Made by a program: the position numbers and the translations under genes
Shown: positions 466 through 59,860 of the stretch, piece after piece
Layout of the letters: every line of letters begins with the position of its first letter
Position numbering within the stretch: position 1 is the first letter of the stretch
Assembly: GCF_002914585.1 (NCBI RefSeq)
Contig: NZ_PDDM01000015.1
Coordinates: 62,001-126,000, forward strand
Source: Pseudanabaena sp. BC1403
GTDB taxonomy: Bacteria; Cyanobacteriota; Cyanobacteriia; Pseudanabaenales; Pseudanabaenaceae
Length of the DNA stretch: 64,000 nucleotides
Direction: 5' to 3'
The notes under the pieces: generated by a model
Seen by the model: only the letters and a program-made list of their open reading frames with translations
Told to the model about the DNA's origin: nothing
Databases searched by the model: none

Positions 466-1950
466 TTGATTACAACTACACCATCAAGCTTTGTCGCCTC
501 TGATTTCCCAGCTATTTGCGGAAACGAAGACGTAATTCAACGCGCTGTGCAAGATGATGCACCAGTATTTCTATCTAATAACAATCTTCGCCTTGAAGAG
601 ATTACCTCAGCCTTTGCCTGTGCATTGCATATGCATCAGCCGACTATTCCCGCAGGAGCAAATGGAGCGCTAATTTGTAATCTGCAAAATATGTTTGAAC
701 ATCAGGGCGAAGGTGATAACCACAACGCTTCTGTGTTTGCATGGTGCTATAGCCGTATGGGAGATTTTATCCCCCAATTAGTTGCAGAGGGCAGCAATCC
801 TCGGATTATGTTGGACTATTCAGGAAATCTGCTCTGGGGATTGCAGCAAATGCAACGCCATGACATTTTGGATAATCTTAAACGCATTACCTGCGATCGC
901 CAATATCAACCCTATGTAGAATGGCTGGGTACGATGTGGAGTCATGCGGTAATTCCATCTACGCCAATTCCCGATGTGAAGCTACATATTCAAGCATGGC
1001 AAAGTCATTTTGCCTCGATTTTTGGCATTGATGCTCTGAAGCGTGTTAAAGGTTTTTCTCCGCCAGAGATGCATCTTCCCAATCATCCCGACACTCTCTA
1101 TGAATACATCAAAGCACTAAAAGAATGTGGCTATCGTTGGCTCATGGTTCAAGAACATTCCGTGGAATGTCTTGATGGTTCAGGACTAACTCAAGATCAG
1201 AAATATTTACCTAATCGCTTAGTGGCGATGAATTCCAATGGCGAATCGATTAGTATCACTGCGCTAATTAAAACTCAAGGCTCAGATACGAAGCTTGTCG
1301 CTCAAATGCAGCCTTATCATGAGGCAAAAGGTCGTAGCAAACAGATGCTTGGTAATATTTCCGTACCTTCTCTCGTTTCGCAAATTGCCGATGGTGAGAA
1401 TGGAGGCGTGATGATGAACGAATTTCCCCGTGATTATCCTTTGGTCTGGGATCAACTTAAAAATAATGGTCGTGGAAGTTCAGGTGTTGTGGGACTAAAT
1501 GGAACTGAATATCTCGAAATGATCGAAGCGGCTGGTGTCAGTCCCCTTGATTACCCTGCCATTCAAGCAGTTCAACAGTATAAAGTCTGGAATAGGGTAG
1601 ATCAAAGCTGCGATCGCAATAATCTCAATACTGCCGCAGTGGAAAGTGCAATTACCGAGCTAAAAGCGAGCGACCATCAATTCCACATGGATGGCGCATC
1701 ATGGACAAATAGTATGAGTTGGGTGCATGGCTACGAAAATGTATTGGAGCCAATGAATAAACTCAGTGCCAAGTTCCATGAAAAATACGATCCACTCGTA
1801 GCGCAAGATCCCTCAATTACTACGCGATCGGATTACCAGCAAGCTTTGCTCTACAATCTCTTGGTTCAAACCAGTTGCTTCCGCTATTGGGGACAGGGAA
1901 CATGGACAGACTATGCTCGTGAACTCTATCGACGTGGCGAAGCTTTGTAA
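466..1950 (+). CDS. Glycoside hydrolase family 57-like protein
   Basis: A 494-residue cytoplasmic protein without signal peptide. The N-terminal HMHQP at residues 55-59 matches the HQP beginning of GH57 catalytic barrels (alpha-amylase, branching enzyme and 4-alpha-glucanotransferase type). A long barrel follows with segments such as PPEMHLP and VQEHSVE. No ATG precedes residue 56, so I take TTG at 466, supported by GAGG about 11 bases upstream. GH57 enzymes act on alpha-glucans such as glycogen, but the exact reaction is not readable here; many cyanobacterial relatives are annotated only as family members. It stands alone, with nadB convergent downstream. Confidence 0.8.
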   Translation: MITTTPSSFVASDFPAICGNEDVIQRAVQDDAPVFLSNNNLRLEEITSAFACALHMHQPTIPAGANGALICNLQNMFEHQGEGDNHNASVFAWCYSRMGDFIPQLVAEGSNPRIMLDYSGNLLWGLQQMQRHDILDNLKRITCDRQYQPYVEWLGTMWSHAVIPSTPIPDVKLHIQAWQSHFASIFGIDALKRVKGFSPPEMHLPNHPDTLYEYIKALKECGYRWLMVQEHSVECLDGSGLTQDQKYLPNRLVAMNSNGESISITALIKTQGSDTKLVAQMQPYHEAKGRSKQMLGNISVPSLVSQIADGENGGVMMNEFPRDYPLVWDQLKNNGRGSSGVVGLNGTEYLEMIEAAGVSPLDYPAIQAVQQYKVWNRVDQSCDRNNLNTAAVESAITELKASDHQFHMDGASWTNSMSWVHGYENVLEPMNKLSAKFHEKYDPLVAQDPSITTRSDYQQALLYNLLVQTSCFRYWGQGTWTDYARELYRRGEAL

Positions 1951-2043
1951 TTCAAAGTTAGCTGTAGCCCAGATTTTGCTTTGTCCCAATCCTCAAAATG
2001 ACAACACCATTTTAAGAATCCAAAGGTCTTACTAGCTGATGTT

Positions 2044-2077
2044 ATACCAATTCACAAAAGTGTGACAACACTTCTGT
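2044..2077 (+). repeat. Truncated ATACCAA-type intergenic element
   Basis: The first 34 bases match the left end of the roughly 103-bp element seen complete at 8562-8664 (ATACCAATTCACAAAAGTG onward). The rest is missing and is replaced by another repeat. Confidence 0.7.
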
Positions 2078-2171
2078 ATCCCCCAACCCCTTCTCCTTGC
2101 AAGGAGAAGGGGAGCCAGAGCTTTTTCTTGTTCCCCTCTCCTTTGCAAGGAGAGGGTCTAGGGTGAGGTTT
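2078..2171. repeat. CCCCAACCCC / GGAGAAGGGG palindromic repeat
   Basis: Two short palindromes, around CTCCTTGCAAGGAG (2094-2107) and CTCCTTTGCAAGGAG (2139-2153), are joined by a T-rich link. A fragment of the same kind (GGAGAAGGTCTAGGGGTG) is at about 4018-4036, so this is a dispersed element rather than a gene-specific terminator. Confidence 0.5.
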
Positions 2172-2208
2172 TAGAAACTTCCACGTAATATCAGTTAATA
2201 ACTCTCTT

Positions 2209-3789
2209 TTAAAGCAAAGCATTAGAGCGTCTGATTTCTTGACCTTCGATAATTGTGTGGAGCTGCCAACTAGGGTCAGTATCAGGGAAATCGGAACGAT
2301 AATGAGCACCGCGACTTTCGGTGCGAAATAGAGCCGATCGCATTAACAAATACGCATAGTCCGCCAGATTGCGGGTTTCGATCCATAGGCGTGAAGGTTC
2401 AGCAAGTTCCGCTAATTCAGTTTGCCATGCAGAAATTTGGGTCAAAGCAATTTCTAATTCAGATTGAATTCGACAGATTCCTGCCGCTTGCCAACTCAGA
2501 TTTTGAATCCCATATTTAATCTCTTGAATAGTTGCCGAATAATTATGATCTTCTAATTTGGGTGCGATCGCCTTCGGAACATTAAAAACATGAGTTTGCT
2601 GAGAGCAGACCTGTTCTGCCAAACGTTCCCCAAATACAAAGCATTCCAAAAGAGAATTGCTCGCTAGGCGGTTAGCGCCATGTACGCCTGTACTGGCAGT
2701 TTCCCCAACTGCATACAGCCCCGCAATGGAAGTGGCTCCATAGGAGTCCACGACAATACCGCCCATACAATAATGGGCTGCGGGAGTTACAGGAATCGGG
2801 GCGGAGAAAATATCAATTTGCCACTGCTGACAGATTTTGATGATATTGGGAAAGCGATGGGCGATTCTCTCACTAGGAATTGACTGTAAATCCAGAAATA
2901 CTGTGGGTTCTTTGGTTTTCTGGAGATGGTTAAATATGGCTCGACTGACAACATCTCTAGGAGCTAGTTCGCCCTTGGGATGATAATTAAATGCAAAGCG
3001 ATCGCCTTGATGGTCGATCAAATGCGCCCCTTCTCCACGCACTGCTTCGCTGATGAGAAATCTTGGGGCGTTAGGCAAAGCGAGGGCAGTTGGATGAAAC
3101 TGTACAAATTCTATATCTCGAATCATGGCTCCTGCACGCCATGCGATCGCGACACCATCACCTGTGCTCGATGGTGGATTAGTATTTTGCGAAAATACTT
3201 GAGCACCGCCACCTGTTGCCAAGACTACCACTGGCGAAATCAAGCAGCTAATTTCCTGCTCTTGATCTAGATAAAAAACACCGCCACAGCGTCCTTGTTC
3301 TAAGTAAAGATCTAACACTAGGGTAGTACTCAAAATCTCAATACTAGGACTTTGCAGTACTGCTGCTGCAAGTTTTGACACCAACGCTCGACCTGTAGTA
3401 TCTGCTGAGTGCAATACCCTACGTCTCGAGTGGGCAGCTTCTAAGGTTAATGCCAAGCTGCCATCTTCATCGCGATCGAAGTCTACGCCCAAGGCGATCA
3501 GTTGTTGAATTTGTCGAGGTGCGGCGTTAACCAATACATCTACTGCCTCGGTTTCACATAAACCAACTCCAGCGACCAATGTATCTTTGCCGTGAAACTG
3601 GGGTGCATCATTTTTGTCGATAACTGCTGCAATCCCACCTTGCGCCCAGTCACTAGCTGAAGTTGACAAGTTATCTTTAGTCACTAAACCAACCCGCCAG
3701 TTTGGTGCTAAATCTGTAAGTCGTAGCGCAGTATAAAGTCCAGCAGCACCGCTGCCGATGATCAAAGCATCAAACCTTGTTTGGTTCAT
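2209..3789 (-). CDS. nadB: L-aspartate oxidase
   Basis: NadB oxidises L-aspartate to iminoaspartate, the first step of quinolinate and NAD synthesis, in the cytoplasm. The N-terminus has the FAD dinucleotide motif GSGAAGL. The body has the family blocks GGAQVFSQNTNP and FVQFHPTAL, and the signature GVHGANRLASNSLLE near residue 390 typical of NadB and the succinate dehydrogenase flavoprotein superfamily. Length is 526 residues, near the usual 530-540. I take ATG at 3789 because MNQTRFDALIIGSG looks like a native N-terminus; an in-frame TTG seven codons upstream gives the longest frame. The gene is alone; nadA and nadC are not in this window. Confidence 0.93.
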   Translation of the reverse strand: MNQTRFDALIIGSGAAGLYTALRLTDLAPNWRVGLVTKDNLSTSASDWAQGGIAAVIDKNDAPQFHGKDTLVAGVGLCETEAVDVLVNAAPRQIQQLIALGVDFDRDEDGSLALTLEAAHSRRRVLHSADTTGRALVSKLAAAVLQSPSIEILSTTLVLDLYLEQGRCGGVFYLDQEQEISCLISPVVVLATGGGAQVFSQNTNPPSSTGDGVAIAWRAGAMIRDIEFVQFHPTALALPNAPRFLISEAVRGEGAHLIDHQGDRFAFNYHPKGELAPRDVVSRAIFNHLQKTKEPTVFLDLQSIPSERIAHRFPNIIKICQQWQIDIFSAPIPVTPAAHYCMGGIVVDSYGATSIAGLYAVGETASTGVHGANRLASNSLLECFVFGERLAEQVCSQQTHVFNVPKAIAPKLEDHNYSATIQEIKYGIQNLSWQAAGICRIQSELEIALTQISAWQTELAELAEPSRLWIETRNLADYAYLLMRSALFRTESRGAHYRSDFPDTDPSWQLHTIIEGQEIRRSNALL

Positions 3790-3870: not shown

Positions 3871-4001
3871 CAGCAGTTCTCATTATAAAAATTGGTTGTT
3901 TGAAAGCCCGCCGTTGGCGGGCTTTCAAACAACCAATTTTGGTGTTTCCAGCGCCGAAGGCGCTGGAAACACCAAAATTGGTTTCATAATGAGAATTGCT
4001 G
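3871..4001 (-). mobile_element. Double-hairpin MITE, copy A
   Basis: This is a 131-bp element with 16-bp terminal inverted repeats (CAGCAGTTCTCATTAT at 3871-3886; its inverse with one mismatch at 3986-4001). It contains two long internal hairpins, around CCCGCCGTTGGCGGG and GCGCCGAAGGCGC. The 9-mer TTTCTACAG flanks it exactly on both sides (3862-3870 and 4002-4010), as a target-site duplication would. It is reversed relative to copies B-E and has no coding capacity. It lies in the nadB-kinase gap, which also holds an ATACCAA element. Confidence 0.85.
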
Positions 4002-8561: not shown

Positions 8562-8664
8562 ATACCAATTCACAAAAGTGTGACAACACTTCTGTGAATT
8601 AAAAACCAAACCCTGTAAGGGTTTTAAAAACACAAAATGGCTGCGCCAATTTGTGTTTTGGTAT
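8562..8664 (+). repeat. ATACCAA-type intergenic element, complete copy
   Basis: It is 103 bp with ends ATACCAA and TTGGTAT. Three hairpins fill it: AATTCACAAAAGTG paired with CACTTCTGTGAATT, ACCCTGTAAGGGT, and AACACAAAATGGC paired with GCCAATTTGTGTT. Other copies are at 4121, 27371, 47696 and 47908. Confidence 0.85.
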
Positions 8665-24888: not shown

Positions 24889-25266
24889 ATGACAGCTTCA
24901 ACAAAAACCTTGCGAGTTTTGGTGGTGGATGACCACGAACTGACCCGATGCACTTTACAGCTAGCTCTTTCACTACAATCTTGTATTGGCACTGTAGAGG
25001 TTGCAACTAATGGCAAAGAAGCGATCGCCAAAGTTCATAAACACGAACCAGATGTCGTAGTCATGGATCTGCACATGCCAGTGATGGACGGATGGACAGC
25101 ATCCAACGCCATCAAAACCGAATATCCTCATATTAAGATTGTTGCTTATTCAGCCGCCGATGGAGGAAAAGCTCAAGCTCTTTCCAATGGAGCAAACATT
25201 GATGCTTTTTGTGACAAAGGAGCCTGTACTCGTAGTTTGCTAGAAGCAATCAGAAGCGTTGCTTAA
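24889..25266 (+). CDS. Single-domain response regulator
   Basis: The protein has 125 residues and is one receiver domain only. It has the acidic pair in VVDDHE, phospho-acceptor Asp in VVMDLHMPVMDG, Ser in AYSAADG and the conserved Lys in FCDKGA. No output domain follows, so it acts by protein contact or in a phosphorelay, or modulates a kinase encoded elsewhere. The start MTASTKTLRVLVVDD is normal. It is monocistronic, converging on the rhomboid gene with a shared hairpin terminator. Confidence 0.9.
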   Translation: MTASTKTLRVLVVDDHELTRCTLQLALSLQSCIGTVEVATNGKEAIAKVHKHEPDVVVMDLHMPVMDGWTASNAIKTEYPHIKIVAYSAADGGKAQALSNGANIDAFCDKGACTRSLLEAIRSVA

Positions 25267-25267
25267 A

Positions 25268-25314
25268 CCCAATAAAAAAGAGTCGGCGTTTTACGCCGAC
25301 TCTTTTTTATTGGG
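25268..25314. terminator. Bidirectional terminator hairpin
   Basis: CCCAATAAAAAAGAGTCGGCG pairs with its complement at 25294-25314, giving an A-run before and a T-run after the GC stem. It ends both the response-regulator and rhomboid genes; the rhomboid stop codon (25307-25309) lies inside the right arm. Confidence 0.8.
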
Positions 25315-26755: not shown

Positions 26756-27274
26756 ATGTCCATTCGCCTTTATGTTGGCAACTTGCCAGCAGAATTAGAT
26801 CGCCAAGCTCTAGAAAAAATTTTCAATGAATCAGGTGATTCAGTATCGTTGAAAGTTATAACTGATCGCAAAACAGGCAAATGCCGTGGTTTTGGCTTTG
26901 TCACTGTCGACTCTGATGAAGTTGCTGACGTAGTCATTGAGAAGTTTAATGGCTATGATTTCAACGGTGCTGTATTAAAGCTAGAAAAAGCTTTGCCTCG
27001 TACCAAAGGTAAAGCCGAAGATGGTTCTGATTTGGAAGATGTTTCTTCTGATGACTCCTCTCAGTCAGAGAGCGAATCTCCAATAACAAGTACAGTTGCT
27101 GCACCAGTTAAAGCCGCAGCAAAACGCAAAAAGCGTAGCAATAACAACAAGAAAACTACTGGAAGTGTATCTAGTTCTAGTGGATCTTCTGAAGCTCATC
27201 AACCTGACCCACGTTGGGCATCTGACCTAGAGCGTTTAAAACAGCTTCTAGAAGCTCAGGGCGCAGCTAAGTAA
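26756..27274 (+). CDS. RNA-binding protein with single RRM
   Basis: The protein has 172 residues. One RRM fills residues 1-82, with RNP2 RLYVGNL at 4-10 and RNP1 CRGFGFVTV near 42-50. A disordered Ser/Asp-rich and Lys-rich linker (KRKKRSNNNKK) leads to a short conserved C-terminus, HQPDPRWASDLERLKQLLE. This is the layout of the longer type of cyanobacterial Rbp proteins, some of which are cold-induced or guide mRNA to the thylakoid. The 150 bases upstream are free of genes and contain AAACAAGTTTTTT twice, perhaps a regulatory leader. A strong terminator follows the stop. Confidence 0.92.
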   Translation: MSIRLYVGNLPAELDRQALEKIFNESGDSVSLKVITDRKTGKCRGFGFVTVDSDEVADVVIEKFNGYDFNGAVLKLEKALPRTKGKAEDGSDLEDVSSDDSSQSESESPITSTVAAPVKAAAKRKKRSNNNKKTTGSVSSSSGSSEAHQPDPRWASDLERLKQLLEAQGAAK

Positions 27275-27367: not shown

Positions 27368-27370
27368 TTT

Positions 27371-27613
27371 ATACCAATTCACAAGAGTGTGACAACATTT
27401 CTGTGAATTAAAAAACAAACCCTGTAAGGGTTTTAAAACAGCAATTCTCATTATGCAACCGATTTTGGTGTTTCCAGCGCCTTTGGCGCTGGAAACACCA
27501 AAATCGGTTGTTTGAAAGCCCGCCAACGGCGGGCTTTCAAACAACCGATTTTTATAATGAGAATTTCTGGTTTTAAAAGCACAAAATGGCGTAGCCGTTT
27601 TGTGCTTTGGTAT
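27371..27613 (+). repeat. ATACCAA-type element interrupted by MITE copy B
   Basis: The left part (27371-27438) and right part (27570-27613) of the roughly 103-bp element are separated by a 131-bp MITE. Removing the MITE and one copy of the GTTTTAAAA duplication restores an ordinary element ending in TTTGGTAT. Confidence 0.85.
27439..27569 (+). mobile_element. Double-hairpin MITE, copy B (nested)
   Basis: It is 131 bp, starting CAGCAATTCTCATTAT and ending with its inverse (ATAATGAGAATTTCTG). It is flanked by perfect 9-bp repeats GTTTTAAAA (27430-27438, 27570-27578). Its two internal hairpins are the same type as in copy A, in the opposite orientation. It lies inside another repeat element, which makes its length and target duplication unambiguous. 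Confidence 0.9.
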
Positions 27614-27616
27614 TAT

Positions 27617-28936
27617 TTAGACTGGTTGCTTGGGATAATAAGAACGCTCATCTGTTAACGGTGGACGCAGCCAAAATCTGAGGGTGTAAAATACTAATTC
27701 TTTAACTTCAGTCCACACTCGCTCAGATTTGACGAAAGCTTCGGCGTTAAAAAGAAAATACTGTGGTTTGAGTCTAAACTGCTTACCAATTGGCCAAGGA
27801 CATTGCTCGCCTAGGTTACTGTGGCTATCGGATGGATAGCTAGCAGTTGTTAATGATGCATTAAGATCTTGGTTTCTAAAAGACAAAAAAGCACGAGTTG
27901 CTTCAGTGGGAGAAGTGATTAACAAGATTCTTCTGCTGTTGCGGGTATCTTCAGCAATTAGCTTGTTTTTTTCTAGAGATTTGATTAGTTTGCTAATTTC
28001 ATCGCCACTGCTTCGCACCGTTATGCCAGATGGCTCAATAATCACAAAAGAACGAATTGAAGAGATATTTGGGAAACTAGTCAAAGCACTACACATTTGA
28101 TCAGCTTCGGTTAGGTCAACTTGAGGGATACCTTCGCTAGGGGCGGCTCTATTGGTAAAGTAGCCCTCATAGCGAGGGTCATACTGCAATCCAATGTTGG
28201 GTATGCCCACTCGGCTAGCGATCGCATCTCTGACATTTTCTTTGGTGCGCGTTGGCGGTGATTCTGGTGGAGTAAGACAGGCGTACCCTTTTGTCGGGGG
28301 GTATGATGTTCGTCTACCCCCACTTAAGATGATGTATGGTTTCTTTTGGATATCAGCCTCATTCCATAATCTGATTGCTTCTTGGAGACGTGGCTCATAG
28401 GGAGGATTTTCGGCAAGGACGACAATGAGATCGTAAACTCCTCGCCTAAAATCCAATAGTTCTTGTTCTGTCAAATTACGAACTGGACGACGATAAGACT
28501 GCTCGATCGCATTTGAGCCTTGTTGTTCTAAGTAACAGGTAAATAGTTCTGAGGTAGCGTTGTTAGTGGCGATCGCAAAGATCAGTAAAACTATTAATAT
28601 TTCTTTCCTAACTGTAGCAACTTTCTCGTTAGCAGCTTTATTGTCAACCTTTTCCCCACTTTTAACGTTGAGATTTTTGAGTCTGAGCCAATAGTTAAAA
28701 AATAGCAATAGCAGCAAAAGCCCAACTAGCGTAAATGGGAACGTGAGAAACTCAACAACAGTTTTGGGGATCGGCTCTTCCACAAATCTGAAGTTCGCAA
28801 AAATGATCGCAATTAACGCTGTAAATATTACTAATCCAAATAGACGAAACCAGTCCTTGGGAATAGCCCTAAACAGAATTACAAAAATTGGGATTGCAAT
28901 AATCCAAATCAGAATATTGGTTAATAGATCAAACAC
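27617..28936 (-). CDS. DUF218 (YdcF/SanA-like) membrane protein
   Basis: Four hydrophobic helices in the first 140 residues are followed by a soluble domain. It begins YDLIVVLAENPPYEPRLQEAIRLW and includes PYIILSGGR, which match the DUF218 fold of YdcF/SanA/ElyC proteins implicated in envelope physiology. The region is longer than usual, with inserted loops. The longest frame starts at TTG 28981, but that codon lies inside a 26-bp palindrome. GTG at 28936, preceded by GGAGG, is a better start and gives 439 residues. The gene is single and its function is unproven. Confidence 0.72.
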   Translation of the reverse strand: MFDLLTNILIWIIAIPIFVILFRAIPKDWFRLFGLVIFTALIAIIFANFRFVEEPIPKTVVEFLTFPFTLVGLLLLLLFFNYWLRLKNLNVKSGEKVDNKAANEKVATVRKEILIVLLIFAIATNNATSELFTCYLEQQGSNAIEQSYRRPVRNLTEQELLDFRRGVYDLIVVLAENPPYEPRLQEAIRLWNEADIQKKPYIILSGGRRTSYPPTKGYACLTPPESPPTRTKENVRDAIASRVGIPNIGLQYDPRYEGYFTNRAAPSEGIPQVDLTEADQMCSALTSFPNISSIRSFVIIEPSGITVRSSGDEISKLIKSLEKNKLIAEDTRNSRRILLITSPTEATRAFLSFRNQDLNASLTTASYPSDSHSNLGEQCPWPIGKQFRLKPQYFLFNAEAFVKSERVWTEVKELVFYTLRFWLRPPLTDERSYYPKQPV

Positions 28937-28970
28937 TACCCCTCCAAAATTCTTTACTGTTGCTTGTTCA

Positions 28971-29023
28971 GTAAAAAACAAGAGAGAATAGGCGCGTCGC
29001 GCCTATTCTCTCTTGTTTTTTAC
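28971..29023. other. 26-bp palindrome at the DUF218 gene start
   Basis: Perfect arms at 28971-28996 and 28998-29023 with a one-base centre. It overlaps the longest possible start of the DUF218 gene and lies upstream of, not after, both flanking genes. Confidence 0.55.
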
Positions 29024-29162: not shown

Positions 29163-29291
29163 CAGCAATTCTCAATATGAAACCGAATTTAGTGTTTCTA
29201 GCGCCAAAGGCGCTAGAAACACTAAATTCGGTTTTTGAAAGCCCGCCGTAGGCGGGCTTTCAAAAACCGAATTTTATAATGACAATTGCTG
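29163..29291 (+). mobile_element. Double-hairpin MITE, copy C
   Basis: It is 129 bp, from CAGCAATTCTCAATAT to ATAATGACAATTGCTG. The internal hairpins are GCGCCAAAGGCGC and CCCGCCGTAGGCGGG. The flanks (TGACAAAG and ATACAAAG) agree at 6 of 8 positions, as an old target duplication might. Its last bases create an ATG (29279) in frame with lipA, which is a false extension of that gene. Confidence 0.8.
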
Positions 29292-47852: not shown

Positions 47853-47907
47853 AAAACCCAAATTAATAAAGGCGGAGCTTTGCTCCGCCTTTATTAATTT
47901 GGGTTTT
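47853..47907. repeat. 26-bp palindrome shared with 59811-59860
   Basis: Arms at 47853-47878 and 47882-47907 surround TTT. The left arm AAAACCCAAATTAATAAAGG continues CGGAGC, and recurs in full 12 kb away, so this is a dispersed repeat and not a locus-specific terminator. Confidence 0.8.
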
Positions 47908-50717: not shown

Positions 50718-50772
50718 AAAACCCAAAAAGCGTGAGGCGGTGCTTTGCACCGCCTCACGCTTTTTGGGTTTT
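50718..50772. other. 26-bp palindrome upstream of tatC
   Basis: Perfect arms at 50718-50743 and 50747-50772 around TTT, with outer AAAACCCAAA stem. It lies in a divergent gap, so it is not a terminator of either neighbour. Confidence 0.55.
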
Positions 50773-54317: not shown

Positions 54318-54448
54318 CAGCAATTCTCATTATGAAACCGATTTTTGTATTTCCACCGCCGAAGGCGCTGGAAATACAAAAATCGGTTGTTTGAAAGACC
54401 TCCAACAGCGGGCTTTCAAACAACCGATTTTTATAATGAGAACTGCTA
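54318..54448 (+). mobile_element. Double-hairpin MITE, copy D
   Basis: It is 131 bp, with terminal repeats CAGCAATTCTCATTAT and ATAATGAGAACTGCTA (last base differs). Perfect 9-bp flanks TCTGCAAAA are at 54309-54317 and 54449-54457. The internal hairpins are as in the other copies, with a few mispaired bases. Confidence 0.9.
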
Positions 54449-58271: not shown

Positions 58272-58402
58272 CAGCGATTCTCATTATGAAACCAATTTTG
58301 GTGTTTCCAGCGCCTTCGGCGCTGGAAACACCAAAATTGGTTGTTTAAAAGCCCACCGTTGGCGGGCTTTTAAACAACCAATTTTTATAATGAAAACTGC
58401 TG
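58272..58402 (+). mobile_element. Double-hairpin MITE, copy E
   Basis: It is 131 bp, from CAGCGATTCTCATTAT to ATAATGAAAACTGCTG. The 9-bp flanks TCATCTAGA and TTATCTAGA agree at 8 of 9 positions. Its internal hairpins are the same type as the other copies. It lies in the 657-base gap between ebfC and the EAL gene. Confidence 0.88.
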
Positions 58403-59810: not shown

Positions 59811-59860
59811 AAAACCCAAATTAATAAAGGCGGAGCAAAGCTCCGCCTTTATTAATTTGG
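59811..59860. repeat. Palindrome shared with 47853-47907
   Basis: The left arm AAAACCCAAATTAATAAAGG continues CGGAGC, identical to the arm at 47853. The inner 21 bases pair with 59840-59860; the outer CCC is unpaired here because the right arm ends at TTTGG. Confidence 0.75.

Follow-up and report, generated by a model that had tools for sequence, protein, structure and literature searches.

A nested pair of repeats between two convergent genes

The window, i.e. the whole 64,000-nt stretch of DNA that was analysed, belongs to contig 15 of the 5.51-Mb genome (G000) of Pseudanabaena, a freshwater cyanobacterium. Two convergent ORFs, coding for an RRM-type protein and a 454-residue protein, flank a pair of nested repeats (Table 1). 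The outer element, called the host repeat here, has the ends TACCAA and TTGGTA; it measures 101 bp without the MITE that interrupts it, and it spans positions 27372 to 27612. The first-pass annotation had placed it at 27371 to 27613, which is one base too far at both ends by direct reading and otherwise right.

Table 1. Coordinates of the nested elements and of the flanking ORFs in the window
Feature	Position	Strand	Basis
ORF, RRM-type protein	26756-27274	+	ORF list
ORF, 454-aa protein	27617-28981	-	ORF list
Left 3-bp target duplication of the host element, TTA	27369-27371	.	Sequence read; empty site GGGTTTTATTTAGAC in L202
Host repeat, left part, TACCAATTC..., ending in the MITE target GTTTTAAAA	27372-27438	+	
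Left 9-bp target duplication, GTTTTAAAA	27430-27438	.	
MITE left terminal inverted repeat, CAGCAATTCTCATTAT	27439-27454	+	
MITE, 131 bp (CAG...CTG), non-coding, two inner hairpins	27439-27569	+	
MITE inner hairpin 1, 25-bp stem, 3-base loop	27457-27509	+	
MITE inner hairpin 2, 10-mer AAAATCGGTT common to hairpin 1	27500-27552	+	
MITE right terminal inverted repeat, CAGAAATTCTCATTAT, one base unlike the left	27554-27569	-	
Right 9-bp target duplication, GTTTTAAAA	27570-27578	.	
Host repeat, right part (...TTTGGTA)	27579-27612	+	
Right 3-bp target duplication of the host element, TTA	27613-27615	.	

Direct reading of the sequence bears out the earlier description of the insertion. The host repeat is split exactly at GTTTTAAAA, exact 9-bp copies of which lie on both sides of the MITE, and the proposed insertion length of 131 bp is correct, as is that of the duplication. 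Removal of the MITE and of one 9-mer yields an ordinary host copy, with 86-90% identity over its length to 28 uninterrupted copies; these represent 27 distinct places, the copy at window position 8563 and L050 being the same place. The target GTTTTAAAA is present exactly in 23 of the 28, and with at most one mismatch in all of them. The locus is thus an ordinary nested insertion of a MITE inside a different mobile repeat. No listed ORF of at least 80 residues overlaps the 131-bp element, and an Rfam scan of the window at gathering thresholds identified no family.

The MITE family

The terminal inverted repeats (TIRs) of the MITE are 16 bp long, CAGNAATTCTCATTAT. A search of the genome that allowed one mismatch gives 142 matches to this pattern and 0 to the reversed control, and the repetition of these ends is therefore not due to chance. 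At least 41 near-full-length copies are found in the genome, a lower bound with 40 of 138 candidates scored. Most of the copies that we inspected are flanked by a 9-bp duplication, each at a different site. Among the loci examined in the same genome, 44 of 82 TIR pairs lying 40-260 bp apart have such a duplication with at most one mismatch, and 33 have it exactly, for a background of 0.24% in 19,774 random pairings of left and right flanks; exact duplications of 8 bp and of 10 bp were found at only two of the 82 pairs each. The average target over the 44 duplications has a weak symmetry, with T prevailing at positions 2-4 and A at positions 6-8. It is fitted by GTTTTAAAA and less well by AGGGTTTTA, the target of another copy (L017).

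The family comprises short, non-coding, dispersed and multicopy elements with TIRs and a duplication of fixed length, and its ends are common to an autonomous insertion sequence (IS) that generates duplications of the same length. Matches were found in 23 of 26 genomes of the genus, including that of the window. Four further copies lie in the window, at positions 3871-4001, 54318-54448, 58272-58402 and 29163-29291, the first three of which have the 9-bp duplications TTTCTACAG, TCTGCAAAA and TCATCTAGA/TTATCTAGA, respectively.

The elements with a 9-bp duplication are of 45 (five elements), 83, 84, 95, 129-133 (33 elements), 141, 149 and 245 bp. The 45-bp elements (positions 2501-2545 of L148, L149, L150 and L133, and 9381-9425 of L160) contain little beyond the two ends. 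They are either minimal mobile units or products of deletion in place. We make no claim that they are independently mobile, because a 131-bp copy that lost, in place, the stretch between its AACCGATTTT 10-mers would look the same. In sister genome G002, four copies with the same flank (L234-L237) probably represent one event copied together with its surroundings.

The host repeat and orthologous sites

The left-end pattern of the host repeat, with up to three mismatches, was found 327 times in the genome and 6 times for the control. The copies that we read are bounded mostly by TTA/TTA or TAA/TAA, and some differ. At the locus of interest, the corresponding position between the same two genes reads GGGTTTTATTTAGAC in genome G019 (L202), which is the empty host site. 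Pseudanabaena sp. lw0831 (L093) has the same empty site. L080 is also without the host element, with slightly different surroundings. Host-type elements are present at other positions of the same intergenic region in L081, L082, L204 and L205, and so this region has been hit repeatedly.

The first-pass annotation had called for a comparison with the uninterrupted locus in near relatives. In that comparison L202 and L093 gave the empty host site, but no intermediate with the host repeat and without the MITE turned up among the 15 named orthologous loci and the 25 loci of the genus search; the latter include the window itself (L201) and two loci, L208 and L210, that stop short of the end of the RRM gene. 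Eleven of the 15 records with orthologues of the neighbouring gene, counted as listed and including near-duplicates by name, are named Pseudanabaena, and the others include Phormidium tenue FACHB-1050 and two uncultured cyanobacteria. A blastn search of plasmids with the flanking gene gave no match.

A probable parent insertion sequence

Pairing of TIRs up to 3.5 kb apart, in 40 stretches of the same genome and in the window, yielded only short elements of 45-245 bp and no IS. In sister genome G002, an IS of 1418 bp (L227, positions 584-2001) has the TIR CAGCAATTCTCATTAT, perfect at both ends, a duplication, GAGATTTAT, and a 435-residue ORF. The ORF product matches DDE_Tnp_1_assoc (E 0.0019) and DDE_Tnp_1 (E 0.0032) weakly, both below the Pfam cut-offs. 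An alignment of five copies of the transposase shows that LDGT-, GDDLY- and RWK-ENEN-like blocks are kept; these could hold the catalytic D, D and E residues. Six of the eight places where the two ends are 1418-1428 bp apart carry an exact 9-bp duplication, which is absent at those ends in L240 and L262. Based on these matching ends and duplications, this IS of sister species (L227 and the copies of G025), with its DDE-like transposase, is the probable parent of the MITE.

Matches to the transposase of this probable parent were found in 12 of the 26 genomes of the genus; many are fragments, and G025 has several intact copies. The MITE is often present in genomes where no parent was found (23 vs 12 of the 26). 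No match to the transposase was detected in the genome of the window, so that present mobility there is only a possibility.

The family of the probable parent was sought through its transposase. The combination of DDE_Tnp_1_assoc and DDE_Tnp_1 is a hallmark of the ISAs1 family. The ends of the unambiguous PF13808-positive ISs of the genus are unlike those of the MITE. One relative, at 46% identity over 98% of the query, is a protein labelled ISNCY, which is a holding class. The transposase matched no NCBIfam model, and a search of PDB sequences returned nothing.

Other candidates for the parent were rejected. At the eight DDE_Tnp_1 loci of the same genome (L042-L049), the TIR gave only one match, with three mismatches. 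For the PF13808 ISs of ISAs1 type (L163-L192), the TIR was found with at most one mismatch in L189 only, and the pair of TIRs there, about 130 bp apart, resembles a separate MITE copy; the other matches in this set have three or four mismatches. In four further pairs of ISAs1-type copies, the sequence common to the pair is bordered by other ends.

Two observations concern the surroundings of IS copies. The L227 copy adjoins and slightly overlaps an ORF that, by eye, resembles a group II intron reverse transcriptase (positions 1976-3016, minus strand). In L262 of G025 (positions 1410-3316) there is, 489 bp downstream of an IS copy, a second right end that may belong to a partial tandem copy.

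Order of the insertions

The nested pair almost certainly arose by two successive transpositions, of the host repeat and then of the MITE, the latter most likely moved in trans by an IS transposase. The 101-bp non-coding repeat would have inserted at a TTA just past the stop codon of the 454-residue ORF (27617-28981), with duplication of TTA. Later, the 131-bp MITE would have entered the A+T-rich spacer of the host element, with duplication of the 9-bp target GTTTTAAAA, most likely mobilised by the transposase of the IS with the same ends, which is 1418 bp long in the sister species. We infer both this mobilisation in trans and the chemistry of the process.

Might the host repeat have come second, by insertion or formation around a MITE already present? 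Nesting of this kind does exist elsewhere in the genome: L134 (C12, near 125 kb) harbours, at positions 2368-2516, a host-type TACCAA element inside a small MITE, for a total of 149 bp. Reverse nesting is also suggested in L146 and L140, and L134 is the only one of the 44 duplication-bearing elements that passed the automatic test. At the present locus, in contrast, the 9-bp duplication is part of the host sequence and directly adjoins the MITE, and the TTA duplication borders the outer ends of the host, which leaves the reverse order a close to negligible probability. The relative ages put forward in the first-pass annotation consequently stand for these two copies, host first and MITE second, and fail at the level of the families: since the nesting is reversed in L134, neither family as a whole is simply older. 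We likewise give next to no credence to a chance match of the 9-mers combined with a local duplication or template switch that produced the hairpin block within the host. In its favour are the many palindromes of the region and the correction-like covariation of the hairpin arms, but the same block with the same ends is found at many unrelated sites with 9-bp duplications. These dispersed copies refute it.

The possibility that host repeat and MITE move as one composite unit of about 241 bp can be judged from the other host-nested MITEs. With flanks joined, four of the 44 duplication-bearing elements are nested in a host repeat, namely the one described here (L001), L010, L017 and L032, and all are in the same short A+T-rich spacer. 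The first-pass annotation had named another copy with the MITE at the same place as the sign of a composite element, and on its face L010 is such a copy (GTTTTAAAA/ATTTTAAAA). However, the MITE of L010 faces the other way within the host and is not the same in sequence, and on orientation we regard it as an independent insertion into a hotspot and reject the composite element. The insertion in L017 lies a few bases away and carries a duplication of its own, AGGGTTTTA; the target 9-mer of L032 is different again, and the host copies used for the flank-joined comparison are uninterrupted. Movement as one unit is thus very improbable. Judged from their sequences, the four elements are separate insertions into a hotspot, in both orientations.

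Relation to known elements

In cyanobacteria, the Nezha elements are MITEs that reportedly form hairpins. Their attribution to ISNpu3-like elements is that of Zhou et al. (2008; cited in PMC10969869; PMC3049150). The likeness to the Pseudanabaena family, both being small cyanobacterial MITEs for which an IS with similar ends is proposed, is one of description. According to PMC3542288, Anabaena sp. 90 has many hairpin MITEs, mostly intergenic, with no recognized parent IS (type II), whereas a parent is proposed for the Pseudanabaena MITE; this likeness too is by description. Nested small mobile repeats are documented for the BOX, RUP and SPRITE repeats of Streptococcus pneumoniae (PMC3049150), another organism with other sequences. 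Nested MITEs are therefore already known in bacteria, and the Pseudanabaena pair is ordinary in kind. Our searches of the open-access literature on Pseudanabaena MITEs or insertion sequences and on ISNpu3 found no description of this MITE family.

The putative parent transposase has 46-52% protein identity to WP_013335080.1, an 'ISNCY family transposase' of a Gloeothece verrucosa PCC 7822 plasmid, and to its relatives. Among these, the plasmid ISs of Calothrix sp. PCC 7716 and Anabaena cylindrica PCC 7122 (about 51% identity) have the ends CAGCAATTCTCATTTT and exact 9-bp duplications. The cyanobacterial plasmid ISs are about 1.87 kb long, compared with 1.42 kb for the putative parent. The same scan found no ends for the Gloeothece copy or for L242.

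What the locus mainly adds is the probable parent IS, which is new, along with the spacer hotspot and the pattern of hairpin covariation. With both duplications intact, two insertions can be ordered cleanly here; the MITE family, abundant in Pseudanabaena, is tied to a probable parent transposase, and a target hotspot is seen to have been hit independently and in both orientations. No function beyond mobility is indicated.

Covarying hairpins of the MITE

The MITE consists of a 45-bp core, i.e. the ends around AACCGATTTT, and two hairpins, with the 10-mer in alternating orientation (131 = 45 + 2 x 43). We aligned 39 of the 41 near-full-length copies, omitting L040 and L041 as truncated or divergent. 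In this alignment 98.4% of the stem cells pair, 19 of 40 stem pairs are changed on both sides, and one-sided changes are few. There are 50 double-change cells, compared with a mean of 5.9 in shuffles and at most 5 for slid structures, all of these covariation counts being inflated by the kinship of the copies.

The loops occur largely as reverse-complement pairs. In hairpin 1 they are TTC (17) and GAA (15), and TTT (2) and AAA (2), with CTC, CAA and TGC having no partner. Those of hairpin 2 are AAC (25) and GTT (4), AAA (2) and TTT (2), AGC (1) and GCT (1), and TAC (1) and GTA (1), with TTA and ATT unpartnered. The covariation together with the reverse-complement loops suggests template copying from arm to arm, i.e. 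template-switch correction, with loop flips. Selection at the RNA level is the alternative, and these hairpins represent a natural data set for weighing DNA-level correction of palindromes against it.

Tentatively, and with more doubt than conviction, we propose that the family is a modular hairpin MITE, in which the 45-bp core (AACCGATTTT) may carry 0, 1 or 2 hairpin modules. The arms would be kept complementary by template-switch correction that flips the loops, rather than by RNA selection. Such an element would be moved by a cyanobacterial IS common to plasmids of Nostocales, and would prefer the TTTTAAAA spacer of another repeat.

Complementary stems whose sequence varies from copy to copy and from strain to strain, with flips of the loop bases among the copies, were also observed in intergenic palindromes of the window (positions 47853-47902, 59811-59860, 25264-25313 and 50718-50767) and in the terminator-like hairpins of L080-L094.
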